Source: Terriglobia bacterium (GTDB taxonomy: Bacteria; Acidobacteriota; Terriglobia; Terriglobales; Acidobacteriaceae). Taken from it: a DNA stretch of 64,000 bases. Of the stretch, positions 3,810-63,699 are shown piece after piece. The stretch's first letter is position 1, and each line of letters starts with the position of its first letter. The position numbers and the translations under genes are program-made. Under the pieces are notes generated by a model. It had not been told where the DNA came from. It saw only the letters and a list, made by a program, of their open reading frames with translations, and did not search any database. The stretch spans positions 1 through 64,000 of the forward strand of contig JAIQFP010000007.1 of the NCBI GenBank assembly GCA_020073165.1, in the 5' to 3' direction.

Positions 3810-4181
3810 TTATTTAGGCCGCTTCGCTCCGTACTTCGACCGGCTCTGTTTGCGGTTCGCGACGCCTACTGCGTCCAGCGTCCCGCGGATCACGTGATAG
3901 CGCACGCCCGGCAGGTCCTTCACGCGGCCGCCGCGGATCAGCACAATCGAGTGCTCCTGCAGGTTGTGGCCCACGCCGGGAATATAGGTCGTGACTTCAA
4001 TCCCGTTGGTCAGCCGCACCCGGGCCACTTTGCGCAGCGCCGAGTTCGGCTTCTTGGGGGTCTGCGTATACACGCGGGTGCAGACCCCGCGCTTCTGCGG
4101 ACATCCCTGCAGCGCCGGGCTCGCCGTCTTGTAGCGCGGCCGCTTGCGGCCGGCTTTCACCAGTTGATTGAAGGTAGGCAC
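3810..4181 (-). CDS. rpsL: 30S ribosomal protein S12
   Basis: Decoding-centre protein and classical streptomycin target. The product is 123 residues, standard length, starting [13 protein letters not shown]. The [17 protein letters not shown] loop carries the lysines whose mutation gives streptomycin resistance elsewhere, and both look wild type here ([10 protein letters not shown] and [10 protein letters not shown]). It is the first gene of the visible str operon. The only good promoter match upstream is at 4668-4697, giving an inferred leader of about 480 nt. Confidence 0.97.
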
Positions 4182-4661
4182 TCTTTGGCTGCTCCCTCAG
4201 CCGCATCTTCCCGCCCAACACCGCCGTCTAGGCATCCCAAGGCGAGACAACGCCGCTTCTGCTTTTTTCCCCTGATTCAGGGGCTGGATGGCCGACCCGC
4301 CAACCATGCTTCCCGCCGCACCAACCTCAGGCGAGAGATTTCCGCTTCCCGGTCAGACTAAGGCTGACGACGGTGGCACCAGGCCCGGTACATTGTCCGG
4401 GAGGTGCTCCGTTTCGTCCGCTCCTGCCCTGCATACCCTTCCGCAGCTCCTGGCGGCGCCGGAAAGTGCAAGCGCACCAGGGACCCTTTGACAGGGCGGA
4501 AGGTAGCGCAGGGCGTTTCAGCGAGGGCGTTTCCGGATCAGCTTGCTCCCGGAAACGTGTTTCTTCTAAAGCTTAGCTGCGTTTTTTCGGGGCTTTCGCA
4601 CGCACACACCTGGCGTGCGGCAACCGCCGCCTACAGACAAGCCAGACTTAACTCGCGGAAC
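4182..4661 (-). other. Long untranslated leader of the str operon (inferred)
   Basis: No convincing coding region lies between rpsL and the promoter at 4668-4697. The leader is rich in short GC stems, for example CCCCTGA-A-TCAGGGG (plus strand 4269-4283) and CCCGG...CCGGG around 4384-4402. I do not recognise a known riboswitch or ribosomal-protein leader. An open plus-strand frame crosses the region but lacks coding character and is treated as an upstream extension of the lipoprotein frame. Confidence 0.4.
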
Positions 4662-4667
4662 CGTACA

Positions 4668-4697
4668 ACTATAGCAACTGACCTCACACATCGTCAA
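4668..4697 (-). promoter_or_regulatory. Sigma70-like promoter for rpsL-rpsG-fusA-tuf
   Basis: Read on the minus strand: TTGACG (4692-4697), an 18-nt spacer, then TATAGT (4668-4673). Five of six bases match in each consensus hexamer. It points toward rpsL and is the best match in the upstream gap. Confidence 0.6.
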
Positions 4698-4741
4698 CCG
4701 GGCTCCCCCGCATCTCACTCCCGAGTGCGCGCCCCGAACCC

Positions 4742-4770
4742 TTGCTCAAAAGAATGCCAACCTCTACACT
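4742..4770 (+). promoter_or_regulatory. Sigma70-like promoter for the 4833 lipoprotein gene
   Basis: TTGCTC (4742-4747), a 17-nt spacer, then TACACT (4765-4770). It points at the lipoprotein gene and predicts a leader of about 55 nt. It is divergent from the str operon promoter 45 bp away. Confidence 0.5.
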
Positions 4771-4832
4771 GGAAATTTTCCGCCACAAGGCTGGCTCGCC
4801 CCCGAAGGCCAACCTTGGGGCGGGGAGGGTGC

Positions 4833-7268
4833 ATGAATAGGTCGGTTCTCCTCGTTTTTGCCGTTCTCATGACTCTGGCGTTGACCGTCGGCTTGGCTGG
4901 CTGCAGCAGCAGCAGCGTCAGGGCGACCACTTTCCCAGTCCCCGCCAACGTGACGCTCTCGCCTTCGGCCAGTGTGTCCCTCGACTTGGGCGGAACTCAG
5001 GCTTTTTCGGGCTCGGCGCATAACCCCCAGGGCGGCATCATAATCGAGCCCATTTCCTATAGCTCCAGCAACACCGCCGTGGTGACGATAGCCAGTAACG
5101 GTCTGGCCTGTGCCGGCACCTGGGATTCCCTGACCGCTCCCGCCGTGTGTACCCCCGGTGCGGTGGGCACTGCCCAAATCACGGCCACCGCCCAGGGAGT
5201 CAGCAGTCCGCCCACTACCGTCTACGTGCATCAACACATTGACAGTATTGTGGTACAAGCAGTTCCCACCGACCCTCCGAACACCAATCCCTGCCTTTCC
5301 AAGGATCTGACTGCCGATTACGAGGCGATCGCGTATGGCCGCGGCGCCGACATCACTTCGACCGTGGGACAGTTCACCTGGTCCGCTGTGACGCCGCAGG
5401 TTGTGTCACTGGATACGACGAAGATCGGGTTGGCGCTCAACCAAGCCGAGGCCAAAGCTCTGGCTCCCGGCATCTCCCAGATCTCTGCCAGCGTCGGTGG
5501 GACCAACAGCTTGCCCTTCGATTTCATCGCCTGCCCGGTGCAATCCATCTCGCTGGTAGTTACCGACACCAACAGTGATTCGTTTACCGTCACCACGGGC
5601 AGTTCCAAGAGCATTACCTCCACCGTGCTGGACAGTCTCGGTGTCAAGATTACCGGGGTTAACCTCACATATTGTTCTTCCCAGCCCGCTACCGCGGTGG
5701 TGGGAAGCTCGAATTGCACCACCAGCATCACCGGCACCGTCTCCGTGAGCACCTCCCAACCGGGGGCGGCCACCATCATCGCGTCGTGTACTCCACCGAC
5801 CTGTAACATTGGATTCTCGCCCACCATTCCCATTTACCCCTCCAACGTCATTAAGGGGCTGGTTACCCGGACATCCAGTGGAACCGCTCCCACCGGAACG
5901 CTGTACGTCTCCAGCACCGGTTGCGGCATTATCGACGGCTGCATCAGTACTATCGTCCCGGTAGCATTTCCCAGCAACGCCGTTGGCCCCCAGATCGGCT
6001 TGCCCGCGACTCCCAATTCCCTGGTCTTTGGCCCCAATGGAGCAAAGGTCTACCTGGGCACGGACTTTGGGCTACAGGGCACCCGCGGCCTTATGGTGGT
6101 GACGATCCAGTCGACCACGACATTGGTGCAACAATTCGCTGCCGTGACCGGTAAAGTGTTGGCCGTTTCTCCCAACGGAAACAAGGTGATCGTCTCCGAC
6201 ACCCACCTGACCCCCAACCAGGTGTTTGTCTTCGATAGCACCAACAACAGCAGCGTGGCGTTGCAGATCACAGGAGCCACCGCAGCTGACTTTTCTCCGG
6301 ATAGCCTCAAGGCCTACATCGTGGGAAGCGCGGGCGGAAGCTGCCCCGCTCCCTCTCCCGCCTGTCTGTACGTCTACTCGACCGTGGTCACCGCACAGAC
6401 CATTCCGCTCGATGCTCCAGTCAACGACCTCACATTCCTTTCCGAGGGGGCGTTTGCGTATCTTGCGGGGGGATCATCGAACGCGGTGACCGTGCGCACA
6501 ACGTGCACGAACGAACTGACCGACACAATCGGCACCGCAGCGGCCCCAGCCTTCATCAAGACTCTTCCCAACGCTACTCAGGTTTTGGCGGTGAACCCGC
6601 CCAATCTCGATATCATCAACGTGACGGCGGCTCCCGTGGGCTGCCCCCCGACGGTCAGCAACACTGTGCAATCGGTGAATCTCGGTCAGGGCAACTTTGT
6701 GCCCACCCAGTTCATCATCTCCCCGGACAGCGCCAAAGCCTACGTGATCTCCAGCACACTTTCCAGCATCCTGGTGTTCGACATTGCCTCGCAGACTACT
6801 TCGGCCATCCAATTGGCCGGCAATGCGACTCCGGTCCGGGCTTCTTTGACCCCTGAAGGCACGCTGCTGTATGTGGCCGCCAGCGACAACATGCTGCATG
6901 CGCTGGATACCGTGGTCAACAGCGACTTCCAACAGATTACATTTCCCACAAACCCTGCCAACCAGCAGGGAGCATTTTGCGACGCAGTGACATTTCAAAC
7001 TGTAACCAGCATTACGGCGGCCTCGCAGAGCGGTTCCGACACTACTTATACCTACACGCTGACCTCCGGCCCAGACCTCCAAATCGGCACGAGCGTGACC
7101 ATCACCGGTATGGCGGATACTGGAAATAACGGGACCTTCACTGTTACTGTGGTGGGCAGTGGGACATTCACGGTGGCAAACCCTTCCGGGGTCACGGCCA
7201 GCGCTCAGAGCGGGATGGGGACCGTAGACCTCGTCTGTAACGCGAACTTGATCGCGGTGAGGCCGTAA
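4833..7268 (+). CDS. Secreted lipoprotein with Ig-like and beta-propeller-like repeats
   Basis: An exported 811-residue protein of unknown function. The ATG at 4833 is preceded by GGGGAGGG and opens a lipoprotein signal with lipobox LAGC (Cys24), so it should be lipid-anchored. Residues about 40-350 are Ser/Thr/Val-rich beta modules of bacterial Ig-like (BIG) character with phrases such as SVSLDLGG and ITATAQG. Residues about 370-690 contain repeated units such as LVFGPNGAKVYLGT, FSPDSLKAYIVG and ISPDSAKAYVIS, typical of YVTN/Lp_2-type surface beta-propellers. A short beta module follows at the C-terminus. The same frame is open upstream to 4404, but the signal peptide and RBS decide the start. 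It probably acts at the cell surface in adhesion or scaffolding; the ligand cannot be inferred. Confidence 0.8.
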   Translation: MNRSVLLVFAVLMTLALTVGLAGCSSSSVRATTFPVPANVTLSPSASVSLDLGGTQAFSGSAHNPQGGIIIEPISYSSSNTAVVTIASNGLACAGTWDSLTAPAVCTPGAVGTAQITATAQGVSSPPTTVYVHQHIDSIVVQAVPTDPPNTNPCLSKDLTADYEAIAYGRGADITSTVGQFTWSAVTPQVVSLDTTKIGLALNQAEAKALAPGISQISASVGGTNSLPFDFIACPVQSISLVVTDTNSDSFTVTTGSSKSITSTVLDSLGVKITGVNLTYCSSQPATAVVGSSNCTTSITGTVSVSTSQPGAATIIASCTPPTCNIGFSPTIPIYPSNVIKGLVTRTSSGTAPTGTLYVSSTGCGIIDGCISTIVPVAFPSNAVGPQIGLPATPNSLVFGPNGAKVYLGTDFGLQGTRGLMVVTIQSTTTLVQQFAAVTGKVLAVSPNGNKVIVSDTHLTPNQVFVFDSTNNSSVALQITGATAADFSPDSLKAYIVGSAGGSCPAPSPACLYVYSTVVTAQTIPLDAPVNDLTFLSEGAFAYLAGGSSNAVTVRTTCTNELTDTIGTAAAPAFIKTLPNATQVLAVNPPNLDIINVTAAPVGCPPTVSNTVQSVNLGQGNFVPTQFIISPDSAKAYVISSTLSSILVFDIASQTTSAIQLAGNATPVRASLTPEGTLLYVAASDNMLHALDTVVNSDFQQITFPTNPANQQGAFCDAVTFQTVTSITAASQSGSDTTYTYTLTSGPDLQIGTSVTITGMADTGNNGTFTVTVVGSGTFTVANPSGVTASAQSGMGTVDLVCNANLIAVRP

Positions 7269-7277
7269 GGATTCCGG

Positions 7278-7316
7278 TCCGCAACTGAGAACGGGAACTG
7301 GGAACACAGAACTGCG
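7278..7316. repeat. Degenerate period-7 repeat (gagaact type)
   Basis: After the lipoprotein stop the sequence reads as imperfect 7-base units: actgaga, acgggaa, ctgggaa, cacagaa, ctg. The same word family recurs at 16247-16280 and 47100-47136, each time directly after a gene's 3' end. Confidence 0.55.
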
Positions 7317-7324
7317 ATTGACGA

Positions 7325-7741
7325 CTAAGAGGGCTTCTGCACTTCCCGCCCCACGCTGTCGAGCACCCCATTAATGAACTGCACCGACTCCGGACTGGAA
7401 AACTTGCGGGCAATTTCCAGGGCTTCGTTGATGACGACCGCGCGCGGCGTCGCAGGGAAGCCGAGCAACTCCGCCACCGCCGCCCGCAGCAGGTTGCGAT
7501 CGACCGCCGCCATGCGCTCCATGCGCCAGTGCTCGGCGTGACGTTCGATCAAGCCGTCAATCTCGGCGGTGCGGTCGCTGGCCACGCGAAAAAGATCGTC
7601 GGCAAAACTCCGGACATCGCCCGCGACCGAATCGCGTTCCTTCCAGAACGTACGCCGCACCTCGTCCGCGCTCTGCCGGCCCATATCAGCCTGAAACAGC
7701 ATCTGCAGCACCAGTTCGCGGGATTTGCGGCGGGTTCCCAT
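7325..7741 (-). CDS. nusB: Transcription antitermination protein NusB
   Basis: RNA-binding partner of NusE (S10) in rRNA antitermination. The product is 138 residues, typical length. Family features seen are the N-terminal RRKSRELVLQMLFQ helix, the central WRMERMAAVDRNLLRAAV segment (usual form W...R....D...LR.A..E), and PRAVVINEALEIARKFS near the C-terminus. It lies downstream of ribH, as in many bacteria, but separated by 95 nt of repeat-rich DNA, so co-transcription is likely but not assured. Confidence 0.95.
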   Translation of the reverse strand: MGTRRKSRELVLQMLFQADMGRQSADEVRRTFWKERDSVAGDVRSFADDLFRVASDRTAEIDGLIERHAEHWRMERMAAVDRNLLRAAVAELLGFPATPRAVVINEALEIARKFSSPESVQFINGVLDSVGREVQKPS

Positions 7742-7779
7742 GGATCAGGTCTCTGGTCTCAGGTGTCGGGTCTCAGGTC
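7742..7779. repeat. Degenerate period-7 repeat (ggtctca type), left arm
   Basis: Seven-base units ggtctct, ggtctca, ggtgtcg, ggtctca lie immediately upstream of nusB. The 16-mer GGTCTCAGGTGTCGGG at 7755-7770 has its reverse complement, with one unit expanded, at 7876-7898 inside the 3' end of ribH. The two clusters therefore form an inverted pair about 105 nt apart. Confidence 0.6.
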
Positions 7780-7836
7780 AGCCGCCTGATGTGACCGGCA
7801 CTCTGATTTGAGTCTACAAGAAATTAGGGAGCGGGC

Positions 7837-8784
7837 TTATCGCCGGGGCTTGCGAGATCGTGAAGGCTTGCCTTTCCCGACACCTGACACCTGAGACCTG
7901 CGACCTTTCTTGCCGACGACTGACGACTGACGACCGACGACTCGCTTCAGCGAAGCCATCTCCACCGCCGCCAGCGCCGCCTCGAACCCCTTGTTACCCA
8001 TCTTCAGGCCGGCGCGATCAATCGCTTGCTCCAGCGTGTCGCAGGTGAGAACGCCGAAGGCATGAGGAACTCCGGTCTCCTGCGCGGATTGGCCGATGCC
8101 ACGGGTGACTTCGTTCACGATCACATCGTAGTGGGCGGTGTCTCCGCGCAGCAGACAACCGAGGCAGATGATGGCGTCGTACTTTTTCGTCTCGGCGAGA
8201 GTGCGGGCGGCGGAGGGAATCTCGAAGCTTCCTGGAACTCGCATGATCTCTATGTCTTCGTTGCGGGCCCCGGTGCGGCGTAACCCATCCAGCGCCCCAG
8301 CGAGCAAGCGCTCGGTGATGAACGCGTTGAAGCGGCTGACCACAATGGCGAAACGTTTCCCGCCGCCATCCAGCTTGCCCTCGATCCCCGCCGTCGGCTG
8401 CTCCGGCGTTCCGTGCACGGTAACCACCATTTCGCCGGGAAGGTCGAGCGAGAAGCTACGTTCGCCGCTGGCCGGCGAAGCCGAATCCGCGAGAACCTTC
8501 AGCTTCATCTTTTGCGCGATAGCGAAAACGTCGTCGGGATTGGTGACTTCGAGGACGATCAGCCTGGCCACATCTTTGAGCCGATCCAGCACTTCCGGAG
8601 GGTACTGCGGTGAAAGTGCATTTACGCTCAGCATGCCCAGAGGCGCAGTCAGTACGGCCGAGTGCTGGTCCGAGCCGCTACCCGCTGCCACACGCTCGAA
8701 CCCGATGGCCTCAAAGAATTCCACCAGCTTGCGAAAATCCTCCGCCCGCGTGGCATAGCGGCCGATGTGGAGTGACTTGAGCAT
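7837..8784 (-). CDS. ribH: Fusion: VOC/glyoxalase-like domain + 6,7-dimethyl-8-ribityllumazine synthase
   Basis: The penultimate step of riboflavin synthesis joins an aminouracil to 3,4-dihydroxybutanone phosphate. The product is 315 residues, twice the usual RibH (about 155). Residues 1-126 resemble a VOC/glyoxalase fold (HIGRYATRAEDFRKLVEFFE, ending FSLDLPGEMVVTVHG). Residues about 133-280 are RibH: FAIVVSRFN, VPGSFEIP, CLLRGDTAHYDVI with the proton-shuttling His218, and MGNKGFEAA. Residues about 281-315 are a basic Ser/Gly/Lys-rich tail encoded by period-7 repeat DNA. The start ATG is 8782-8784. I know of no standard role for a VOC domain on RibH. It may be a divergent partner domain or a substrate/metal module. 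The RibH assignment is firm; the N-terminal function is unknown. Confidence 0.88.
   Translation of the reverse strand: MLKSLHIGRYATRAEDFRKLVEFFEAIGFERVAAGSGSDQHSAVLTAPLGMLSVNALSPQYPPEVLDRLKDVARLIVLEVTNPDDVFAIAQKMKLKVLADSASPASGERSFSLDLPGEMVVTVHGTPEQPTAGIEGKLDGGGKRFAIVVSRFNAFITERLLAGALDGLRRTGARNEDIEIMRVPGSFEIPSAARTLAETKKYDAIICLGCLLRGDTAHYDVIVNEVTRGIGQSAQETGVPHAFGVLTCDTLEQAIDRAGLKMGNKGFEAALAAVEMASLKRVVGRQSSVVGKKGRRSQVSGVGKGKPSRSRKPRR
7870..7948. repeat. Period-7 repeats inside the 3' end of ribH (right arm)
   Basis: Two blocks are seen: acacctg/acacctg/agacctg/cgacctt (7880-7906) and tgacgac/tgacgac/cgacgac (around 7918-7942). The first block is the inverse of the cluster beside nusB. Here the repeat is translated and forms the low-complexity C-terminal tail of the RibH fusion. 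Confidence 0.6.
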
Positions 8785-9730: not shown

Positions 9731-10609
9731 TTAGAGCTTTTGCGCTTTCGGATTCGCCGGGTCCGAATAATCGTAAAATCCTTTCCCCGACTTCCGCCCA
9801 TACCACCCCGCCATCACCAGCCGCTTCAGCAATGGAGGTGACGCGAAACGCCGCTCCTTGAACTCGTCGTACATCACGTGGGTGATGTAATAGGTCGTGT
9901 CGAGCCCGACGAAATCGAGCAGCGTGAACGGCCCCATGGGATAGCCGCAGCCCAGCTTCATCGCCTGATCAATGTCCTCGATCGAGCCCACGCCTTCTTC
10001 ATACGCCCGGATGGCATCGAGCAGATACGGCACCAGCAGCCGGTTCACGATGAACCCGGTCTTGTCGCTGGTGCGCACCGGAACCTTACCCAGCTTCTTA
10101 CCGAACTCGTAGGCGGTCTCGTAGACGTCGTCAGCAGTGGCGATGGTGCGCACGACCTCAACCAGCTTCATCAGGGGCACGGGATTAAAAAAGTGCAGTC
10201 CGATAAACCGCTCAGGACGCTTGGTCGCGGTCAGAAGCTCCGTGATCGAAATGGACGAAGTATTCGAAGCGAAGATGCAGTCTTTCTTGACGATCGCATC
10301 CAGCGCCGAGTACATCTTCTTCTTTTCCTCGACGTTCTCAATCACCGCTTCCACAATGATGTCGCAACCGGCCAGGTCTTCTTTCTTCGTCGTGCCCTTC
10401 AGCCGCGCGCGGATTGCCTGGGGCGTCTCCTTAATCGTGCCCTTCTCGGCAAACTTGGCCAGTGACTTTTCGATCCCGGCAAATCCCTTGTCGAGAAATT
10501 TCTGCTCAACCTCGAGGCTGGTAACGTCGAAACCGGCCATGGCCGCGACTTGCGCGATGCCGGAACCCATCAGTCCACAACCCAGAACACCGACTTTCTT
10601 GATTTCCAT
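9731..10609 (-). CDS. 3-hydroxybutyryl-CoA dehydrogenase
   Basis: NAD(P)-dependent oxidation of 3-hydroxyacyl-CoA or reduction of acetoacetyl-CoA. The product is 292 residues, the length of single-domain HBD enzymes. The Rossmann motif KVGVLGCGLMGSGIAQVAA is at the N-terminus. Also seen are FASNTSSISIT, the catalytic His segment RFIGLHFFNPVPLMKLVEVV, and GFIVNRLLVPYLLDAIRAYE. It sits between the crotonase (37 nt) and the thiolase (171 nt with an inverted repeat). The family often prefers NADPH or NADH; the choice is not predictable here. Confidence 0.94.
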   Translation of the reverse strand: MEIKKVGVLGCGLMGSGIAQVAAMAGFDVTSLEVEQKFLDKGFAGIEKSLAKFAEKGTIKETPQAIRARLKGTTKKEDLAGCDIIVEAVIENVEEKKKMYSALDAIVKKDCIFASNTSSISITELLTATKRPERFIGLHFFNPVPLMKLVEVVRTIATADDVYETAYEFGKKLGKVPVRTSDKTGFIVNRLLVPYLLDAIRAYEEGVGSIEDIDQAMKLGCGYPMGPFTLLDFVGLDTTYYITHVMYDEFKERRFASPPLLKRLVMAGWYGRKSGKGFYDYSDPANPKAQKL

Positions 10610-10650
10610 GACGCATTCCTCTTCTGCCGTTTGGTCACCACTAACCCTGA

Positions 10651-10746
10651 CGTCATCCTGAGCCGGGCGTCCGGCCGGCTAAGGACCTCGCGCGCGCCAC
10701 CACAATGCCGCCGCGCGCCAGATCCTTCGCTTCGCTCAGGATGACG
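10651..10746. repeat. Inverted repeat with 13-bp arms (cgtcatcctgagc)
   Basis: CGTCATCCTGAGC at 10651-10663 is mirrored exactly by GCTCAGGATGACG at 10734-10746. The intervening DNA is very GC-rich. I recall 'tcatcctgagcgaagcgaagga' words dispersed in acidobacterial intergenic DNA; the right arm here (gatccttcgcttcgctcaggatgac) fits that memory. It could fold into a large stem between thiolase and HBD genes. Confidence 0.7.
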
Positions 10747-10780
10747 CCTTCTTAAGCAGTTGTGCCTCAGCGCGAAGCTT

Positions 10781-11980
10781 CTAGTTCAGGCTCTCCACAA
10801 TCATCGCAATCCCCTGCCCGCCGCCAATACACGCCGTACCCAGCCCGTACTTCTTCTTCCGCCGCCGCAGTTCGTAGAGCAGAGTGATGATCAGCCGCGT
10901 TCCTGTCGCTCCGAGGGGATGCCCCAGAGCAATCGCTCCGCCATTCACGTTCACCTTCTCGCGGTCCAGCCCCAACTCTTTCTCTACCGCCAGGTACTGC
11001 GCCGCGAAGGCTTCGTTGACTTCGATCAAGTCAATGTAATCCAGCGTCAGCGCGGCTTTTTGCAGCGCGATCTTGGTCGCCGGAACCGGCCCCCGCCCCA
11101 TCACCTTGGGTTCCACCCCCGCAATTCCCCAGCTCACGATTCGTCCCAGCGGCTTGAGACCTCGCTTTGAAGCTTCCTCCAGCGACATCATCACCACCGC
11201 CGCGCCGCCATCCACAATGCCGCTGGCGTTGCCGGCGGTCACCGTGCCGTTCTTGCCGAATGCGGGCTTGAGCTTGGCCAGCCCTTCCATGGTGGTTTGC
11301 GCGCGCCGGTGATCGTCTTCCGTGAACATCTCGCCGCTCGGCTCACCCTTGCGGTCTTTGAGCGGCACCGGCACCAACTCCTCCTGCAAATGTCCGGCCT
11401 TATACGCGGCGTCGGCACACTGCTGCGAGCGCAACGCGAACTCGTCCTGCATCTGGCGGGTGATACCTTGCTGTTCAGCGTAAAGCTCGGCGGTATTGGC
11501 CATGTACAGCCCGCAGTAGGTGTCGAGCAAGGCGACCATGAGGGAATCTTCCAGCTTGCCGCCCGGCGCAAGCGTGAATCCATCGCGTCCGCGGATCACA
11601 AACGGCGCCTGCGACATGGCTTCCATACCCCCGGCGAGCACGACGTTGGCCTCGCCCACCATGATCATCTGGGCCGCGCTGACCATTGCCTGCATGCCCG
11701 ACCCGCAAAGACGATTCACCGTCAGCGCGGGTGTCTCGATGGTCAGGCCCGCCCGCAGCCCGACGTGGCGCGCGCCGTACAGCGCGTCGCCCGAAGTCTG
11801 CTGCGCATTGCCGAATACGCTGTGGTCGAATTCCTTGGGATCGATGCCCGAGCGCTCGATCGCTCCTTTGCTCGCGACAGCGCCCAGTTCCATCGCCGAA
11901 AAGTCCTTCAGCTTGCCGCAATATCGTCCAAAGGGCGTACGTGCCCCGCTTACGATGGCAATATCACCTGGTTTCAACAT
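10781..11980 (-). CDS. Acetyl-CoA acetyltransferase (thiolase)
   Basis: Condenses two acetyl-CoA or thiolytically cleaves 3-ketoacyl-CoA. The product is 399 residues, typical. The acyl-accepting Cys lies in [20 protein letters not shown], the catalytic His in [17 protein letters not shown], and the second Cys in [11 protein letters not shown]. Start ATG is 11978-11980. It is the first gene of a three-gene minus-strand set with HBD and crotonase. A 171-nt gap with an inverted repeat separates it from HBD, so separate transcription or processing is possible. Confidence 0.95.
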
Positions 11981-54680: not shown

Positions 54681-54872
54681 GTGGACGAAGGCCGCAAGCG
54701 CGTGCTGTTGATCGCCGCCTCGATCCTCGCAGCCCGAAAGCTCGCTCAGTATGACAGCGGAGCACGGGTACCTGCGACGGTGAGCGCCATTGCTGATGCT
54801 ATCCGATGGGCTGAGCGGATCATGGAGGAGATTGATCGGCGGTGGCCTGACGCGAGGAACAGGACTGTGTAG
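54681..54872 (+). CDS. Small conserved-looking helical protein
   Basis: 63 residues, GTG start. RKRVLLIAASILAARKLAQY and TVSAIADAIRWAERIMEEID form two amphipathic helices joined by a DSGARVPAT loop, ending in RRWPDARNRTV. No RBS is visible, and a -10-like TAGACT is placed for leaderless transcription. I recall similar short proteins on integrated elements of soil bacteria but cannot name the family. It is the first of a plus-strand run of genes (54681-57084). Function unknown. Confidence 0.55.
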   Translation: MDEGRKRVLLIAASILAARKLAQYDSGARVPATVSAIADAIRWAERIMEEIDRRWPDARNRTV

Positions 54873-54913
54873 CCGGAAGGCTCCAATTTTAGCGTGGGAC
54901 GGAATAGAAAAAG

Positions 54914-55924
54914 ATGTCGGTCAACATAATTGCTGCTTGGCCAATCGCAATCGTTGGGGTTTCCGACCGACGCCTCACCGGGTTTGTCTCAGGAAAGATG
55001 CACACGAATCGTTCGACAAAGATGACGGTTTTCGGATGTGCGGACGCGCACGGAGTCGTCGTGTACAACGGGATCGGGATGGATGACCAAGGGTTGACAC
55101 CGGGTGACTGGCTGATGGAACTCGGGGAGCAGAAGGTCTTTGATTCTGATATTCAACAGGTGCTGGAATCGGTCAGAACGGATTTGGAGGGTCGGCTCCA
55201 AAAGCTCCGTGAGGTATACGGCCCGAAAAAGGCCCGACATACTTTCACTTTCGCCGTTTGGCGCAACGACCAGACAGAAATCCACAACCTCACGAACTAC
55301 GAATCGTTCGATGGGGGCGAGAACCTAGCAGAGGGCAGTGACAGGGTAAAGCTGATTCCGTCTTTTCCGACCCCGCAGGCCAAAGTCGGAATATTAGTAA
55401 CCGGCACAATGCCTCCAATAGCTGACGTGAAGGCGATTCGGCAAGTGATTGCAGCGAAGCCCGTCAATTACGTATTGGCTCGCTGCATCAAGGTGGTAAG
55501 AGATGTCGCCTATAGGCGCGGCAATGCGCGAGGAGCAGTTGGTTCTGCTGCTCAGTGGGCAGTTGTCGGCCCGCAGCGCGAAGATATTCACTGTGGTCTT
55601 GATGTTGTTGGTGGACGGGTCGCGCAAGAACCACCAAACATGATTAACGTCCACGCAAAATCGCATGTGGCAGGAACGAGGTCAGTGGGTTTTGGGAGTG
55701 CCGGAGCCGGAATGCTGATCAAGGACGCATATGCATATGCCGTTGCAGAAGACGGAAGCCGCATAGACATTGCTCATTACGACCCAGATCAGAAAGGGGT
55801 GCTCTTCAGTGAGCCTAAGTGCGGAGTCTGTGGTTCGCCGTGGCCTGCATCTCATCGGTTCTGCGAGGTGTGTCTACATGACGAGCATCACGCCCGTGGG
55901 AAGAAGCAACGCCGAAGAAGATGA
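54914..55924 (+). CDS. Candidate proteasome/HslV-type Ntn hydrolase with C-terminal zinc ribbon
   Basis: 336 residues, ATG 54914. If Met1 is removed (next residue Ser, normally permissive), the mature protein starts SVNIIAAWPIAIVGVSDRRL and has Ser1, Asp17, Arg19 and Thr21. That is the register of proteasome beta subunits (Thr1, Asp17, Arg19, Thr21). A Lys at mature 35 (STKMTVFGC) may replace Lys33 with a two-residue longer loop, and VVVYNGIGMDD recalls the glycine-rich turn near residue 47. The body is longer than HslV or 20S subunits (about 180-240). The C-terminus adds C303-G-V-C306...C317-E-V-C320, a zinc ribbon, and a basic tail KKQRRRR. The neighbours are a DUF5677 gene and defence genes. 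The fold is inferred from motif spacing; Ser instead of Thr is unusual for proteasomes but usual in other Ntn enzymes. No signal peptide. Confidence 0.6.
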   Translation: MSVNIIAAWPIAIVGVSDRRLTGFVSGKMHTNRSTKMTVFGCADAHGVVVYNGIGMDDQGLTPGDWLMELGEQKVFDSDIQQVLESVRTDLEGRLQKLREVYGPKKARHTFTFAVWRNDQTEIHNLTNYESFDGGENLAEGSDRVKLIPSFPTPQAKVGILVTGTMPPIADVKAIRQVIAAKPVNYVLARCIKVVRDVAYRRGNARGAVGSAAQWAVVGPQREDIHCGLDVVGGRVAQEPPNMINVHAKSHVAGTRSVGFGSAGAGMLIKDAYAYAVAEDGSRIDIAHYDPDQKGVLFSEPKCGVCGSPWPASHRFCEVCLHDEHHARGKKQRRRR

Positions 55925-55982: not shown

Positions 55983-56816
55983 ATGCCAGACACGATGGGA
56001 CAGAGATTCAGTTGCGGATTCCCAGAGGAGTGGGAGGATTTTGCAAAGAGGCACCGTTTGTTTCTTGAGCGGTTTCCTAACCTTGTCGCGGCTTTGAACA
56101 CTGCATTCATCAGAAGGGCAACCCTGTCAGAGCATATCGACAAGTTCATCTTCTTCTACGGAAGGCTTTGTTGCGAAGATTTCTTTGAAGTCGGGTTGTG
56201 CTGTGGCAACGGGTATGGGGCTGCCGCTATGAAACTCGTCCGGAGCCTGTACGAGAGAGCAGTCACATTGCGGTATTTGCACGAGCACCCAGAAGAGTTG
56301 ACCGATTTCTGGGATTATCACCATGTCTCCTCGTACAAGCTCATGGTTCCAGTGGACGAGACGCTAGGCACGAAAACTGTACCGGAAGAGATGCGTGCGA
56401 AGCTGAAAACAGATTTTGAAAGAGTCAAAGAACGGTTTATGGTGACCGCCTGTGATGAGTGCGGGACAAAGCGCCTGAATCACACGTGGAGCAAGCTCGA
56501 TTTTGTTTCGATGTCCAAAAAGACGGGCGTCATCGGCAAGCTGGTTGTCCCCGGCTACTACTGGCCGCTGCGTCACGCTCACGCAACGGTCGGTGCGCTG
56601 CTATCGAGATTAGAAGACAGTGAAGTTGAAGGAATTTCCTTTGCACCAACTGCACAGAGAAAAGAGGCCGACGACGCTCTGATGACGGCGCAGAATATCA
56701 TCGTCGATGTTTTGAACGTCCAAGACGAGCGATTCAAGATTCCGGGGCTGAGTGAACAGATTCAGCATGTGATCGATGATTTTGGCGAGATGTACGCAAA
56801 GCCTGCGAAGGATTGA
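55983..56816 (+). CDS. DUF5677-like protein
   Basis: 277 residues from ATG 55983, which has GGAGGG nine bases upstream; the frame is open into the previous gene. The core MKLVRSLYERAVTLRYLHEHPEELTDFWDYHHVSSYKLM is the characteristic DUF5677 helix pair (R-S-L-x-E, then H...F..Y). A CDECGTKR sequence, W-SKLDFVSMSKKTG and PLRHAHATVGALLSRLED follow. DUF5677 proteins are found in defence islands and some have been proposed to be HEPN-related; no biochemical role is known to me. The stop overlaps the next small gene start (TGATG). Confidence 0.7.
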   Translation: MPDTMGQRFSCGFPEEWEDFAKRHRLFLERFPNLVAALNTAFIRRATLSEHIDKFIFFYGRLCCEDFFEVGLCCGNGYGAAAMKLVRSLYERAVTLRYLHEHPEELTDFWDYHHVSSYKLMVPVDETLGTKTVPEEMRAKLKTDFERVKERFMVTACDECGTKRLNHTWSKLDFVSMSKKTGVIGKLVVPGYYWPLRHAHATVGALLSRLEDSEVEGISFAPTAQRKEADDALMTAQNIIVDVLNVQDERFKIPGLSEQIQHVIDDFGEMYAKPAKD

Positions 56817-57084
56817 TGGTGTATTCGGATGTGTCACGGAGACTCGAAATGACCTTGGACAACTTCCGTCAATCCCTCACAGCGAACGAGCCGCCTCCGG
56901 GACTCACATTTGCCCTCTCCGGTCTATGGTGGGACGCCAAGGGCGATTGGACGCGGGCTCACGAATCTGCTCAGCAGAACGATGGCAGTGACGGGTCTTG
57001 GGTGCACGCCTACTTCATCGCAAGGAAGGCGATCAGGACAACGCGGCTTATTTGTACCCTACTGCACGCCTGATGTTTTCCTGA
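56816..57084 (+). pseudogene. Small conserved gene with an apparent one-base frameshift
   Basis: As written the frame gives an 85-residue product to 57073 starting MVYSDVSRRLEMTLDNFRQS. The middle PPPGLTFALSGLWWDAKGDW-TRAHESAQQNDGSDGSWVHAY matches a small family I recall (ALWWDAKGDW..AH..aq....AWVHAYLHRKEGD..NA.YWY.RA). Here the sequence turns into FIARKAIRTTRL. Moving to the +2 frame at about 57012-57016 gives HRKEGDQDNAAYLYPTARLMFS and a stop at 57082-57084, restoring the family ending. A one-base deletion or a sequencing error fits. ATG 56816 overlaps the DUF5677 stop by one base. Confidence 0.65.
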
Positions 57085-57796
57085 TGTTCGCAAGTTCTCT
57101 TGTCCGCAACTCTTTGGCTAACCAACCGACAAGAGTAATAGACGCCTCGACAGCCTTGTTCAACTGCTCTCGGCTGACGCTCACTTCTGCTCCAATGTTG
57201 TCCCCTGAAACGTAGTCGGGGTATTTCTCAGAAAATGAGCAATCCAAGAAAGCTGTGACGCCCTCATTCCAATCTACGTCGTCATTGAACTTGAACGTGT
57301 TTGCCTCAGCACCTTCATGGACAATCTGGTTCCGCACCACGCGCATCGTCTCAACAAACTCGATACGGTCTGCGTTGGCACTGAAGTCGATCCCGAACCG
57401 CTCGGTATATTCGAGCCAAAGGCGGTTGAACTCGCTCATGTTCTTCTTACCGTATCGCCTTCTCCGTGGGCTAAACGACTCCGCTGACTTAGACATGTTA
57501 CGTAGGGCGTGCGTTAGACGGGACGCCAGTGCCACGAGTGCCATGTTCCTCAAGAACCGTTCCTGCCTGCTGTTTGTTTCGAGAACATCGACATGCTCAT
57601 CAATCAAGTGTTGCTGATATTCATCATCGTGAGACTTTTCAAGTGCTGCTTTTATTTCCGCCAAATCAGTATCGGTGTTTGTGTTGAGATACCGAACGCT
57701 GGCATCCAGCGTGCCTTTAATCAGAATGTGAACGTCCCACTGAAACTGCTGGTACTCGTCATCGTAAAAATCCATATCCGACAGGAGTTCATTCAT
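57059..57796 (-). CDS. HEPN-motif protein of unknown family
   Basis: 245 residues from ATG 57796. The all-helical, acidic sequence contains FVETMRVVRNQIVHEGAEA; R155-N156-x-x-x-H160 is the R-N-x-x-x-H (R-x4-H) motif of HEPN ribonucleases. Other helices are FLRNMALVALASRLTHALRN and ALEKSHDDEYQQHLIDEH. No Cys-rich or membrane region. It is transcribed toward the frameshifted gene (3' ends overlap by 26 bp) and away from hsdR. The start overlaps an upstream 38-codon ORF by 8 nt. A toxin or abortive-infection role is an inference from the motif and the location. Confidence 0.6.
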   Translation of the reverse strand: MNELLSDMDFYDDEYQQFQWDVHILIKGTLDASVRYLNTNTDTDLAEIKAALEKSHDDEYQQHLIDEHVDVLETNSRQERFLRNMALVALASRLTHALRNMSKSAESFSPRRRRYGKKNMSEFNRLWLEYTERFGIDFSANADRIEFVETMRVVRNQIVHEGAEANTFKFNDDVDWNEGVTAFLDCSFSEKYPDYVSGDNIGAEVSVSREQLNKAVEASITLVGWLAKELRTRELANIRKTSGVQ

Positions 57797-57905
57797 AACG
57801 CACCCGTCGTAGGGTGAGTTGCTCTGACGCTGGAGAGGGCACTGCCAGAATGGTATCGAGGGTTCGAGCAAAAGGCATGGTCGCGAGTCCCTTTAGATTT
57901 GCCAT
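57789..57905 (-). CDS. 38-residue leader ORF overlapping the HEPN-motif gene
   Basis: Too short for standard gene calls. ATG 57905 has an excellent GGGGAGG six bases upstream and a TACAAT -10 at 57926-57931. It encodes MANLKGLATMPFARTLDTIL and continues to VRYE. Its TGA lies inside ATGAATGA, 8 nt beyond the HEPN-gene ATG, so ribosomes ending here could restart on that gene, which has no RBS of its own as strong. The promoter, RBS and first codons (ATGGCAAAT) match those of the basic-repeat gene at 54440. Confidence 0.5.
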   Translation of the reverse strand: MANLKGLATMPFARTLDTILAVPSPASEQLTLRRVRYE

Positions 57906-58015: not shown

Positions 58016-60706
58016 GTGAAACCGTCTGAAAGCAATTCCGAGTGGCTTACGCGCAAGCGGCTGATCGACCCGAAGCTGAAAGCAGCGGGCTGGCGAATTG
58101 TTCCGTTCAGCCCCGACACGCCGCTCAGGTCCTATGACCGTTGTGCTGTTGAGGAGTTTGAGACTGAACACGGCCCCGCCGACTATGCCCTCTGCGTGGC
58201 TGGTCAGGTTCTAGGAATTGTCGAAGCCAAGAAACTGACCCTTGGCCCGCAGAGCGTTCTAACGCAGGCTGAAAGATATTCCAAAGGTGCTACTAGCAGT
58301 CCACTCAACTTTCGCGGGTATCGAGTTCCGTTTCTGTATTCGACCAATGGCGAGGTCATTTGGCATCACGACATACGAAACGCTCTCAGTCGCTCGCACA
58401 CAATCGCACAGTTTCACACTCCAGACGCCCTAGCCGAACAGCTTGCCAAGGACTTCGACGTATCCTGTCAGGCGCTTCTCCAAACACCTAACGATCATCC
58501 CCGCCTCCGCGAATATCAGCGGCAGGCAAACGCAGCCGTCGAAAAGGCAATCGTTGACCGCAAGCATCAGATGCTCGTGGCGATGGCAACCGGAACGGGC
58601 AAGACCTTCACGATGGTCAATCAGGTTTATAGGCTGATGAAGGCCGAGGTCGCTCTGCGGATTCTCTTCTTGGTTGATCGTCGCGCACTGGCTGCACAGG
58701 CGGTGCTGGCATTCGCGTCCTTCGAGCCGGAGCCGGGACTGAAGTTCGACAGAATCTACGAAGTCTACAGCCAGCGATTCCAGCGAGGAGATTTCGACGA
58801 GGACGAGAAGTTCGACCCAAGAGTTTTGCCAAGCTCCTATTTGACTGACCCTCAACCGGGGCATGCCTTCGTCTACGTGAGCACGATCCAGCGGATGACC
58901 ATCAACCTTTTCGGGCGGGACGCAATCGTGGCCTCTGGCGACGAAGAAGTCGATGAAGATGCCAGCCAGCTAAACATCCCAATCCATGCGTTCGATCTGA
59001 TAATCGCCGATGAGTGCCACAGAGGATATTCAACTCAAGAAAGCGCAATCTGGAGGAAAACCCTCGATCACTTCGATTGCGTCAAGGTCGGTCTGACCGC
59101 AACACCCGCCGCCCACACGATGGCCTATTTCAAGGACATCATCTATCGGTACGAGTACGAGCGGGCTGTGCGGGAGGGATTCCTCGTTGACTACGATGTG
59201 GTTGCGGTCAAGTCCAACGTTCGCATGAATGGCATTTTCTTGAACGAGGGAGAGCAGGTCGAGGTCGTCAATCCTATCTCTGGTGCTAAGCAACTCGACT
59301 TGCTGGAGGACGAGCGCCAGTTCGATAGCGCCAAGATCGAGCATGACATCACGTCGCCCGACTCAAATCGAAAGATTCTCGAAGAGGTCAAGAAGTGGAT
59401 GCTGGAGCACGAGCAGCGGTATGGTCGCTTGCCGAAAACGCTCATTTTTGCCAGCAACGATCTCCCGCACACGTCGCACGCCGACCAGTTGGTTGACCTT
59501 GCTCGCGACATCTTCGGTCGAGGCGATTCATTCGCTCAAAAAATCACGGGTAGGGTGGATCGTCCCCTTCAGCATATTCGCGAGTTCCGCAATCGCCCAG
59601 CGCCGACTATTGCCGTGACGGTTGATCTGCTGACCACTGGTGTCGATATTCCCGATCTGGAAGGCATCGTCTTCCTGCGCCCCGTGAAGTCCCGAATATT
59701 GTTCGAGCAGATGCTCGGACGAGGCACTCGCAAGGGTGAACACTTCCCAGACAAGTCCCACTTCGTGGTGTTCGACTGCTTCGACGGAACGCTGCTGGAG
59801 TACTTCAAGAATGCAACGGCGATCACCGCTGAACCGCCGGAGCGCGAGCCGTGCACAATCGTCGAGATCATCGAAGACATCTGGAGCAACCGAGATCGCG
59901 ATTACAACATCCGCAGGCTTGTCAAACGTCTCCAACGCATCGAGAAAGAGATGTCGGGCGAGGCACGGGACATGTTCGCTGCCCACATTCAGGGTGGTGA
60001 TGTTGGAAAGTACTCCAGCGATCTCCCGCGCAGGCTGGGCCACGACTTCGTGGATACGATGAGCCTGCTCCGGGACAAAGTATTCCAAGACCTGTTGATG
60101 AATTATCCCCGCAAGGAGCGCAGGTTCATCGTTGCCTACGAGACACAGGATACGGTCACTTCATCATGGCTCGTGCGCGGGATCGACGGCAAGGAATACA
60201 AGCCCGACGACTACCTCACCGCGTTCGCTCAGTTCGTCCGTGAGAATCCACAGCAGATTGAGGCAATCCGAATCCTGTTGCAACGCCCCAAGGACTGGAG
60301 CACGAAAGCATTGAGCGACTTGCAGCAAAAGCTCGCGGCAACACCGCAGCGGTTCAACAAAGAGAATCTTCAGAGGGCGCACGAACTGCACTACCAGAAG
60401 GCGCTCGTGGACATCATTTCGATGGTCAAGCACGCCGCCAACGAGCAACAACCCCTGTACACTGCTGAAGAACGAGTCAAGCTCGCCATGGCGAAGATCA
60501 CGTCAGGCAAGAACTTCACGCCCGAACAGGTGCAGTGGCTTGATCGGATCGAGGGGCACTTGTCCGCAAACCTGACCATCGACTCCAGCGACTTCGACGC
60601 TTTGCCAGTATTCAACCGGGTCGGCGGCTGGGGTCGCGCAAACAAGGCTTTCGCAGGCCAACTTCCTCAACTCATCCACCAATTCAATGAGGCCGTAGCG
60701 TTATGA
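58016..60706 (+). CDS. hsdR: Type I restriction enzyme R subunit (EcoEI/HsdR type)
   Basis: 896 residues, GTG start. The N-terminal PD-(D/E)xK nuclease is seen in GPADYALCVAGQVLGIVEAKK. The helicase core has Walker A ATGTGK196T, Asp-Glu box D332-E-C-H, SAT-like GLTATPAAH and motif VI-like FEQMLGRGTRKG. The C-terminal ~300 residues are the EcoEI_R_C coupling region. The subunit translocates DNA and cleaves it when the HsdM/HsdS complex meets unmethylated sites. The stop overlaps the hsdM start (ATGA). No RBS of note; the start follows a TATAAT. Confidence 0.95.
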   Translation: MKPSESNSEWLTRKRLIDPKLKAAGWRIVPFSPDTPLRSYDRCAVEEFETEHGPADYALCVAGQVLGIVEAKKLTLGPQSVLTQAERYSKGATSSPLNFRGYRVPFLYSTNGEVIWHHDIRNALSRSHTIAQFHTPDALAEQLAKDFDVSCQALLQTPNDHPRLREYQRQANAAVEKAIVDRKHQMLVAMATGTGKTFTMVNQVYRLMKAEVALRILFLVDRRALAAQAVLAFASFEPEPGLKFDRIYEVYSQRFQRGDFDEDEKFDPRVLPSSYLTDPQPGHAFVYVSTIQRMTINLFGRDAIVASGDEEVDEDASQLNIPIHAFDLIIADECHRGYSTQESAIWRKTLDHFDCVKVGLTATPAAHTMAYFKDIIYRYEYERAVREGFLVDYDVVAVKSNVRMNGIFLNEGEQVEVVNPISGAKQLDLLEDERQFDSAKIEHDITSPDSNRKILEEVKKWMLEHEQRYGRLPKTLIFASNDLPHTSHADQLVDLARDIFGRGDSFAQKITGRVDRPLQHIREFRNRPAPTIAVTVDLLTTGVDIPDLEGIVFLRPVKSRILFEQMLGRGTRKGEHFPDKSHFVVFDCFDGTLLEYFKNATAITAEPPEREPCTIVEIIEDIWSNRDRDYNIRRLVKRLQRIEKEMSGEARDMFAAHIQGGDVGKYSSDLPRRLGHDFVDTMSLLRDKVFQDLLMNYPRKERRFIVAYETQDTVTSSWLVRGIDGKEYKPDDYLTAFAQFVRENPQQIEAIRILLQRPKDWSTKALSDLQQKLAATPQRFNKENLQRAHELHYQKALVDIISMVKHAANEQQPLYTAEERVKLAMAKITSGKNFTPEQVQWLDRIEGHLSANLTIDSSDFDALPVFNRVGGWGRANKAFAGQLPQLIHQFNEAVAL

Positions 60707-62163
60707 GCGATGTAGTCCAGCAACTCTGGGGTTTCTGTCACACACTTCGCCACGATGGGATCGACTATGGCGATTACATCGAGCAGCTAACCTATCTACT
60801 GTTCTTGAAGATGGCGGATGAACGCGACATCGAATTGCCGAAAGGCTGCGATTGGCCGAGCCTTGTCAATAGGTCCGGCACTGCTTTGCAGGATCATTAC
60901 ATCGATCTTCTGCGAAAACTCGGTCAGCAACGCGGGTTGCTCGGTGACATCTTCGCTGGCGCTCAGTCGAGGTTCAACAATCCAGTCAATCTTAAGAAGT
61001 TGCTTGGCTTGATTGACGACATCGAGTGGACTGCACTGGACATCGACATCAAGGCTGCTGCTTTCGAGGGGCTGCTTGAAAAAGCCGCGAGCGAAGGCAA
61101 GAAAGGGGCAGGTCAATACTTCACACCCCGCATCCTGATTAAGGCTCTCGTTCGGTGCATGAAGCCCGATCCGCGTGCTCACAAGGAATTCACCATGTGT
61201 GATCCCGCGTGCGGTACGGGCGGATTTCTTGTTTCATCCTACGAATGGCTAATCGAGGAAACTAAGGGCGGAGCACTGCCTCGCGATCTCGCCAAACGAT
61301 TGAGGTCCGACACCTATTTTGGGCAGGAACTTGTTCAACGTCCCCGTCGTTTGACCCTGATGAACCTATATCTGCACGGTCTGGAGCCTCATATCGCTTT
61401 CGGCGATTCGATCTACGAGATTCCGAGTGGTCAACGCTATGACGTGGTGATGACCAATCCACCATTCGGAACCAAGGGAGCAAATCAGGCACCAACCAGA
61501 GATGACTTCACCATTTCAACCAGCAACAAGCAGTTGAACTTCATCCAGCACGTGATGACGATCTTGAAGCCGGGTGGCCGGGCGGCGGTAGTTGTGCCGG
61601 ACAACTGTCTGTTCGCAGATCAGGCAGGCGAAGTTTTCAAGATTATCACCGAGGATTGCAACCTACACACTGTGCTCCGTCTTCCGAATGGTACTTTTAC
61701 GCCGTACAGCCCCGGCACCAAGACGAACGTGATCTTCTTCACCAAGGGTTACAAGACCGAGCACCTGTGGGTTTACGACGCTCGAAGCAATGTGCCCCAC
61801 ATCACAAAGAAAGATCGGCCCCTTACGCCGGAACACTTCGCAGAGTTCGAGAAGTGCTACGGTGCCGATCCGTATGGACGAGCAAGAAGGAACTCGGGCA
61901 ACTCCAAAGAAGATCGTTGGCGCACGTTTACCATTGATGAGATCAAGAACCGGAACTACAAGATTGACAGCCTCAAGTGGCTTAAGGATGAGTCGCTAGA
62001 TGATGGCGACAGTCTATTGGAGCCAGAAGAACTCGCAACCGATGCAATCGCTGAACTTCAGGCAGCAGTTGAGGAACTGACAACCATAGTGGCTCTTCTG
62101 GAAAACGGTACGGATGCAAACCACACGGAAAGAGCAACGGCCAAGAAATCAGTCTTGGCATAG
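60703..62163 (+). CDS. hsdM: Type I restriction-modification DNA methyltransferase subunit
   Basis: 486 residues, N6-adenine methyltransferase. The N-terminal helical HsdM_N domain (YGDYIEQLTYLLFLKMADER) precedes the SAM site D167-P-A-C-G-T-G-G and the catalytic N252-P-P-F in VVMTNPPFGTKG. KKGAGQYFTPR, the usual pre-motif, is intact. With two copies per HsdS it methylates and also forms part of the nuclease. Overlaps hsdR by 4 nt; hsdS begins 15 nt after the stop. All catalytic residues are present, so the system looks active. Confidence 0.96.
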   Translation: MSDVVQQLWGFCHTLRHDGIDYGDYIEQLTYLLFLKMADERDIELPKGCDWPSLVNRSGTALQDHYIDLLRKLGQQRGLLGDIFAGAQSRFNNPVNLKKLLGLIDDIEWTALDIDIKAAAFEGLLEKAASEGKKGAGQYFTPRILIKALVRCMKPDPRAHKEFTMCDPACGTGGFLVSSYEWLIEETKGGALPRDLAKRLRSDTYFGQELVQRPRRLTLMNLYLHGLEPHIAFGDSIYEIPSGQRYDVVMTNPPFGTKGANQAPTRDDFTISTSNKQLNFIQHVMTILKPGGRAAVVVPDNCLFADQAGEVFKIITEDCNLHTVLRLPNGTFTPYSPGTKTNVIFFTKGYKTEHLWVYDARSNVPHITKKDRPLTPEHFAEFEKCYGADPYGRARRNSGNSKEDRWRTFTIDEIKNRNYKIDSLKWLKDESLDDGDSLLEPEELATDAIAELQAAVEELTTIVALLENGTDANHTERATAKKSVLA

Positions 62164-62178
62164 AGAACACCTGCGATC

Positions 62179-63699
62179 ATGATCACAGAATTACCAGACG
62201 GCTGGTCGATCATTCGGGTTTCAGACTACTTTGATAGCTGGGGAGGGATGACGCCATCTACCAGTAACTCAAGCTATTGGGGCGGCAACGTGCCGTGGCT
62301 TTCGTCAAAGGACATCAAGACGCTGCGAATTACCGCTGGAGAGGAGTTCATCACTCGAAAAGCGTTGCAGGAGACCCGTCTGCGCCTCTGCCCAGCGGGT
62401 ACGGTCGTCATCGTGGTGCGAAGCGGTATCCTTGCGCATACCTTGCCTATTGCGGTCGTTGACGCTCCCGTTTCGATTAACCAAGACCTCAAAGCATTTC
62501 TTTCCCCGGACACTGGCCTAAATGAGTGGCTGGCTCTGGCCCTGCGAGCCTTATCCCCAGAAATCCTGTCGGAAAATCGTAAAGACGGCACAACCGTTCA
62601 AAGCATTCGTTACGAAGAACTCTGCGATCTCAAGATACCTGTACCACCACGCGGTGAACAGCGCAGGATTGCTGCTCGGGTTGTTCAGCTTAGCGAAAAA
62701 GTTGAGAACACGAAACAACGTCTTTCCCGAATCCCCGCGATCCTCAAACGCTTTCGGCAATCTATGTTGGCGGCAGCTTGTTCGGGGAGGCTCACCGCAG
62801 ACTGGCGTGAACAACATCCGCAGGCGACAGTCGTGTTCGCCAAGAGTGACGGCCCCGCTAAGACTCGTCGTGGTGTACCTGCCAGAGTTGAGTGTCCGAA
62901 CGATCTGGCTGAGTTCGAAATACCTCCGTCTTGGGCACTCAAGTCGGTCGCCGATCTCTTGATGCTGGGCACTCTGAAGGACATAAAAGACGGAAATCAT
63001 GGTTCAAATCACCCTAAGACTGCGGAACTTGGAGACCACGGTCTACCATTCATAACGGCTGCTCAAGTCAAGAACTACAAAATCGACTACGAAAGTGCTC
63101 CGAAGATAACTGGGCAACCATTGAAACGCCTTAAAGTGGGATTTGCGGAAAAGGGAGATGTAATTCTCACTCACAAAGGCACGGTCGGGAGAGCAGCGGT
63201 CAACACGAAGCCTTGTGTTCTAACGCCCCAAACCACGTACTATCGATGTGATCCAGAAGTACTCGACCCGGCCTATTTGGTTCATCTCCTGAATTCTCCG
63301 TTCTTTTACTCCCAGCTTGCCGCCGTCATGTCGCAGACTACACGAGACTTCGTTCCTATCAGTGAGCAGTATCGTCTGTTCCTAATTCTTCCTCCGGTGG
63401 AGGAGCAGCGGGAAATTGGCCGTCGTCTCGGTCTCTTGTTAGATGCTGCCGACAAAGTGCAGCAGGCTTTTCAAGATGCCACAGCACGAACAGATCGCCT
63501 AACCCAATCTGTCCTCGCCAAAGCCTTCCGTGGCGAACTCGTCCCCACCGAAGCCGAACTTGCTCGGCGTGAAGGCCGTGAATATGAGCCCGCCTCGGTG
63601 CTGCTGGAGCGCATCCGTGCAGAGCGGGAAAATCAGGTGAAGTCCCTGCAGGTTTCGAAGCACAAGTCGAAGAGATCCACTACGCTCGTCGGAGCGTGA
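62179..63699 (+). CDS. hsdS: Type I restriction-modification specificity subunit
   Basis: 506 residues. Two target-recognition domains in the usual order: the first from LPDGWSIIRVSDYFDSWGG to VPPRGEQRRIAARV, a long conserved helix (EKVENTKQRLSRIPAILKRF), the second from IPPSWALKSVADLLMLGTL to LPPVEEQREIGRRLG, and a second helix (AADKVQQAFQDATARTDRLT, SVLAKAFRGELVPTEAEL). Each domain reads half of a bipartite site; the site itself cannot be predicted. Directly followed by another gene with no spacer. Confidence 0.95.
   Translation: MITELPDGWSIIRVSDYFDSWGGMTPSTSNSSYWGGNVPWLSSKDIKTLRITAGEEFITRKALQETRLRLCPAGTVVIVVRSGILAHTLPIAVVDAPVSINQDLKAFLSPDTGLNEWLALALRALSPEILSENRKDGTTVQSIRYEELCDLKIPVPPRGEQRRIAARVVQLSEKVENTKQRLSRIPAILKRFRQSMLAAACSGRLTADWREQHPQATVVFAKSDGPAKTRRGVPARVECPNDLAEFEIPPSWALKSVADLLMLGTLKDIKDGNHGSNHPKTAELGDHGLPFITAAQVKNYKIDYESAPKITGQPLKRLKVGFAEKGDVILTHKGTVGRAAVNTKPCVLTPQTTYYRCDPEVLDPAYLVHLLNSPFFYSQLAAVMSQTTRDFVPISEQYRLFLILPPVEEQREIGRRLGLLLDAADKVQQAFQDATARTDRLTQSVLAKAFRGELVPTEAELARREGREYEPASVLLERIRAERENQVKSLQVSKHKSKRSTTLVGA

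Follow-up and report, generated by a model that had tools for sequence, protein, structure and literature searches.

A predicted proteasome-like Ntn hydrolase in an island-like stretch of an acidobacterial genome, with relatives on phages and a plasmid

The window analyzed in the current study is a stretch of 64,000 nucleotides of contig JAIQFP010000007.1 from a Terriglobia bacterium. Reading of the sequence and comparison with relatives defined an ORF with an ATG start (54914..55924, plus strand), the 336-residue product of which begins MSVNIIAAWPIAIVGVSDRRLTGF and is predicted to be a proteasome-like Ntn hydrolase. An in-frame TAG is located three codons 5' of the ATG (54905..54907, plus strand), so that there is no earlier start and hence no room for a propeptide in the window ORF; the serine behind the initiator would thus be residue 1, provided that the methionine is removed. 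A small open frame of 63 codons (54681-54872), which lies on the same strand, stops 41 bases 5' of this start.

Downstream of the Ntn gene are a gene for a DUF5677 protein (55983..56816, plus strand; PF18928, E 2.4e-14), an ORF on the minus strand (57059..57871) with a weak Pfam match to HEPN_RiboL-PSP that is below cut-off, and the type I restriction-modification genes hsdR, hsdM and hsdS (58016..63699, plus strand). The GC content of about 0.60 drops to 0.51-0.56 near 55 kb and is low past the window end too, and the left flank can be followed collinearly in another genome of the genus, with 87% DNA identity, as far as window position 53023, where this collinearity ends. The stretch has the appearance of an acquired island, close to whose left edge the Ntn gene lies; the right edge of the island was not found. 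At locus L053 there is a second DUF5677 gene (2290-3165), 52% identical to the copy at 55983-56816, and this pair flanks the type I restriction-modification genes. L053 also contains, about 7 kb past the right end of the window, a gene (7039-7794) which on reading appears to be a serine recombinase of the resolvase type and is a candidate for moving the island.

A close relative of the window protein (L001, 48% identity) was found in one other Acidobacteriaceae genome. When 398 genomes of this family were searched with a profile, four divergent intact relatives (L023-L026) were detected, together with one truncated gene copy (L003, 1342-1770, minus strand), which has probably decayed. In a phylum-wide search, relatives were present in 2 of 396 genomes, and the more distant protein L034 (245 residues) was also found. 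Further relatives are encoded on a mobilizable plasmid of Mycobacterium marseillense (L029) and by the Gordonia phages Nymphadora (L030) and CarolAnn (L031). The phage genes, gp30 of Nymphadora (4001-4870) and gp36 of CarolAnn (4004-4984), are annotated as 'hypothetical protein' and encode proteasome-like Ntn homologs. Scans of viral collections gave nothing besides the Gordonia phages; the DNA pattern M-T-x...V-[SA]-D-R-R-x-T yielded two further relatives, on two viral-collection contigs (L050 and L052), together with one already-known repeat and two misses. Where identity was measured, the full-length relatives other than L001 share about 13-25% with the window protein, and the actinobacterial ones are below 20%. 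The Ntn gene is rare and patchy in its distribution.

Candidate G000:C33 (L004) lies opposite an M48-peptidase-like ORF, on the other strand, and was dropped as a chance match; G223 (L005) was dropped as an AAA ATPase. L027 and L028, in which the match is confined to the C-terminal half, were left out; L027 has a zinc ribbon of its own.

Only six columns are invariant in the alignment of 12 full-length sequences, which were drawn from Acidobacteria, the mycobacterial plasmid, the Gordonia phages and prophage contigs: M1, Ser/Thr2, D18, K36, G53 and G210. Columns 2, 18, 36 and 53 correspond to nucleophile 1, Asp17, Lys33 and the oxyanion Gly47 of the proteasome, and conservation of Thr/Ser1, Asp17, Lys33 and Gly47 is the hallmark of the proteasome-like family (Fuchs, Alva, Lupas 2021, PMC8665760). 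In the window (all plus strand) they are represented by Ser2, the predicted N-terminal nucleophile (54917..54919), Asp18 (54965..54967), Lys36 (55019..55021), with a loop two residues longer than in the proteasome, and Gly53 (55070..55072), for which the oxyanion role is taken from PMC8665760. Gly210 (55541..55543) opens the strand following H4 in the structure model. Arg20 and Thr22 (54971..54979), equivalent to proteasome residues 19 and 21, are common and variable, Arg20 occurring in 10 of 13 sequences and Thr22 in 11, with Ser in one more.

With the methionine gone, Ser2, Asp18, Arg20, Thr22 and Lys36 become residues 1, 17, 19, 21 and 35, and the window protein is in register with the HslV of the same genome (MTTVLCVRRNGNVVMAGDGQVT) without gaps through position 22. 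The residues and spacing on which an earlier, sequence-only reading had based its proteasome register were correct, and the Gly-rich turn which it described is G53/G55, the first of these being the invariant glycine. That reading had also staked its assignment on Ser, Thr or Cys at position 2 of the homologs; Ser or Thr is found there in every relative (13 of 13 sequences). Of the features whose conservation it proposed to check, Ser/Thr2 and D18 are invariant; Arg20 is not, and neither is the putative C-terminal zinc ribbon, which the window protein shares with L001 only. The window protein is 73% identical to L001 in residues 1-60 and 34-40% identical in residues 61-200, which fits the strongest constraint being on the active-site half. 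In L001 a GTG lies upstream at 4271, with a well placed GGAG, and would put five residues ahead of MS, so that exposure of the serine through methionine removal is uncertain in that protein.

The window protein is probably a catalytically competent enzyme. Proteasome alpha subunits are inactive and have the same fold (PMC8665760), which offers a precedent for a catalytically dead protein with a structural or regulatory function, but the nucleophile Ser/Thr, the Asp, the Lys and the Gly are invariant among sequences that are only ~13-50% identical to the window protein, making such a function highly improbable.

Direct sequence searches of Pfam, NCBIfam, PHROGs and the PDB assigned no family to the window protein, and in the Pfam search the ORF gave no match above the curated cut-off of PF00227 (Proteasome). 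The link to PF00227 that had been proposed from the sequence was thus not seen directly, but it did emerge from profile-profile and fold comparison. For the former, HslV and Anbu-like proteins encoded by related genomes, all of which match PF00227 except L041 (below cut-off), served as the comparison set. Compared by hhalign without the initiator methionine, the two groups aligned in exact active-site register (score 41.6, E 2.6e-5, probability 75%), against a maximum score of 16.0 in 60 column shuffles and 13.9 for the reversed alignment; a comparison that retained the methionine, with 100 shuffles, gave an agreeing outcome. Against the Anbu-like proteins alone, the alignment ran end to end (residues 1-225) and included the strand following G210, whereas the match to HslV alone was weak (E 0.02, probability 2%). 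L037, L038, L039, L040 and L041 are other divergent acidobacterial proteasome-like genes that encode about 260-320 residues with an M-T start; four of them exceed the PF00227 cut-off and L041 falls below it.

An AlphaFold2 model of residues 1-291 was obtained from seven sequences, half of the relatives being left out, with a pLDDT of 59.7 and a pTM of 0.67; a model from two sequences was discarded (pLDDT 34). In the better-modelled part, residues 1-231, the order of elements is that of a proteasome beta subunit. The predicted Ntn core (residues 1-232; 54914..55609, plus strand) reads S1 S2 S3 S4 H1 H2 S5 S6 S7 S8 H3 H4 S9/S10 S11, i.e. the S1-S11 beta core flanked by H1-H4 that is typical of the proteasome-like family, with H1 at 63-77 and H2 at 80-102. 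Foldseek gave 35 PDB matches with E<=0.001 (best E 3.3e-5, prob 1.00), and 50 of the 50 matches listed were proteasome or Anbu chains, the top matches having modest TM-scores (0.41-0.47, normalized to query length). In a fold search of a viral library, rank 1 was the Nymphadora protein, itself part of the model alignment, and rank 2 was a phage 'proteasome beta type-2 subunit' (E 7.7e-6). From sequence and model together, the window protein almost certainly has a proteasome-like Ntn fold, as the earlier reading had proposed. Its active site, its predicted fold and the profile-profile comparison class it as proteasome-like, and by the curated cut-off it lies outside PF00227.

The Ntn clan contains many small-molecule amidases, and a TANGO2-like viral protein appeared in the viral-library fold search (E 0.013), both of which would suit a small-molecule Ntn amidohydrolase or a non-proteasome Ntn branch, e.g. 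of the TANGO2/NRDE or acylase type. This assignment is unlikely, given that the PDB matches listed all belong to the proteasome or Anbu and that the register is that of proteasome, HslV and Anbu, including Lys33, which other Ntn branches are not known to have.

Like connectase, the window protein is a proteasome homolog with an extra C-terminal domain and a very narrow distribution. Connectase has ligase chemistry (PMC8665760), and a connectase-like protein ligase or transpeptidase would be acylated by a specific motif and transfer it to another N-terminus; that the relatives are accessory and sparse (phylum-wide) suggests a narrow specificity of this kind. However, H1-H2 are missing from connectase, which carries an insertion of two helices between S3 and S4 (PMC8665760), while in the window model H1 and H2 are present and the insertion is absent. 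The prediction of both helix pairs favours subunit contacts like those of proteasome, HslV and Anbu over the connectase design, and such a ligase is considered quite unlikely. A peptidase is somewhat more probable than a ligase and a small-molecule amidase taken together.

The Ntn genes of several relatives were found on mobile elements. A tyrosine integrase gene lies 0.5 kb from the L001 copy, the other genes there being unrelated, the gene in the Gordonia phages sits between tail genes and the integrase, and one relative lies on a prophage contig on which portal, terminase and integrase genes were recognized by reading. Other relatives, e.g. at L042 and L044, lie amid ordinary chromosomal genes, so that the status of mobile cargo is not universal. 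Near the L024 relative, locus L043 encodes a SIR2-like defence-type protein with a repeat-rich C-terminus (9753-11366, minus strand). A histone-like neighbour of the window gene had no counterpart on comparison with the relatives' loci.

The position of the window gene beside type I restriction-modification and DUF5677/HEPN-like genes, together with its phage and plasmid relatives, would be consistent with a role in anti-phage defence or counter-defence within a restriction-rich island. Neither hsd nor DUF5677 genes were present beside the relatives examined, and no recurrent partner gene was detected across their neighbourhoods, which leaves the association with restriction or DUF5677 genes, suggested by the earlier reading, unsupported. 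PADLOC gave no match, and among the relatives examined no defence partner was shared, the SIR2-like gene being seen at L043 only. A defence function is accordingly regarded as doubtful.

The earlier statement that no described system with this fusion is known was too strong, as the 2021 survey by Fuchs, Alva and Lupas lists 22 uncharacterized proteasome-like subfamilies, of which some occur in phages and some have additional domains at the C-terminus (PMC8665760). The survey reported no informative genomic context for these subfamilies and left their functions open (PMC8665760). One of them, DAH ('Distant Actinobacterial proteasome Homolog'), which has WP_085249540.1 as a representative, occurs in Actinobacteria, Proteobacteria, Cyanobacteria, other bacteria and phages, and has a C-terminal domain without known similarity (PMC8665760). 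Compared by description rather than by sequence, DAH resembles the relatives found here, which are actinobacterial, acidobacterial and phage-borne and have a C-terminal extension; its distribution and extra C-terminal domain make it the likeliest home of the window protein. Unlike DAH as described, the window protein has a zinc motif and an acidobacterial host, neither zinc motif nor Acidobacteria being named for it in the text of PMC8665760. A literature search for DAH function found nothing past that paper.

The window protein resembles Anbu in its fold (TM up to 0.47/0.56), in the lack of a propeptide, in the Thr/Ser behind the methionine and in the end-to-end profile alignment, but there was no significant direct sequence match, and the coiled-coil helix at the Anbu C-terminus is replaced by a low-confidence extension and a putative zinc ribbon. 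With HslV and proteasome beta subunits it shares the register of nucleophile, Asp17, Arg19, Thr21, Lys33 and Gly47 and the order of secondary structure; in contrast to these PF00227 members it is missed by the Pfam model and has a longer domain of about 290 residues. Unlike HslV, it has no cognate unfoldase adjoining its gene, and the genome's own HslV is encoded elsewhere (C7). This kind of protein was already established by the 2021 survey, and the window protein is a variant of it, not a new type of machine. What is reported as new here are the acidobacterial and plasmid members, the zinc-ribbon and SEC-C tails, neither of which is mentioned in the main text of PMC8665760, and the repeated mobile-element setting.

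The reading preferred here, to which a probability of about 0.62 is assigned, is that the window protein is a highly divergent proteasome-like Ntn hydrolase, often carried as accessory cargo of mobile DNA, which probably performs limited or targeted proteolysis. In the proposed mechanism, methionine aminopeptidase would take off Met1 and expose Ser1, as expected for a protein that has no propeptide and carries a small residue at position 2. Following the aligned proteasome site, Ser1 would then attack an amide bond with the assistance of Lys35 and Asp17, and the backbone of Gly52 would form the oxyanion hole. The predicted H1-H2 and H3-H4 pairs, which make subunit contacts in the proteasome, HslV and BPH, suggest that the protein is probably an oligomer. 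The putative zinc ribbon and basic tail would probably bring in a substrate or partner, the likeliest outcome being limited or targeted proteolysis.

The C-terminal part begins with an extension of low model confidence (residues 233-300; 55610..55813, plus strand), followed by the CxxC...CxxC motif and basic tail noted in the earlier reading. The two pairs (residues 303-306 and 317-320) form a CxxC-x10-CxxC putative zinc ribbon (residues 303-320; 55820..55873, plus strand), for which all Pfam zinc-ribbon matches were below cut-off. Identity to L001 is 65% in the ribbon region (300-322) and 21% in the poorly conserved basic tail (55880..55921, plus strand). Most relatives have no zinc ribbon, and L025 and L050 end in SEC-C metal-binding motifs, that of L025 matching PF02810 (E 5.6e-7) and that of L050 being assigned by reading. 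Putative zinc tails of two forms on one Ntn domain suggest a role of the tail in recruitment, not in catalysis.

A broader and rather unlikely extension would be that mobile elements carry self-contained proteasome-like enzymes whose zinc tails (the ribbon here, SEC-C in L025 and L050) select the target, i.e. single-gene, unfoldase-free proteolytic or ligating effectors in conflicts between element, phage and host. Since temperate phages and a plasmid carry copies, some proteasome-like enzymes may be cargo of mobile elements, a hint that can be tested. Its clean active site, lack of a propeptide and at least two forms of putative zinc-binding tail make the group a source of small, tractable candidates for studying proteasome-like function. 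It was also found that the L050 protein (6778-8097, minus strand) has more CxxC pairs beyond its SEC-C motif; the L025 gene spans 386-1369 on the minus strand.
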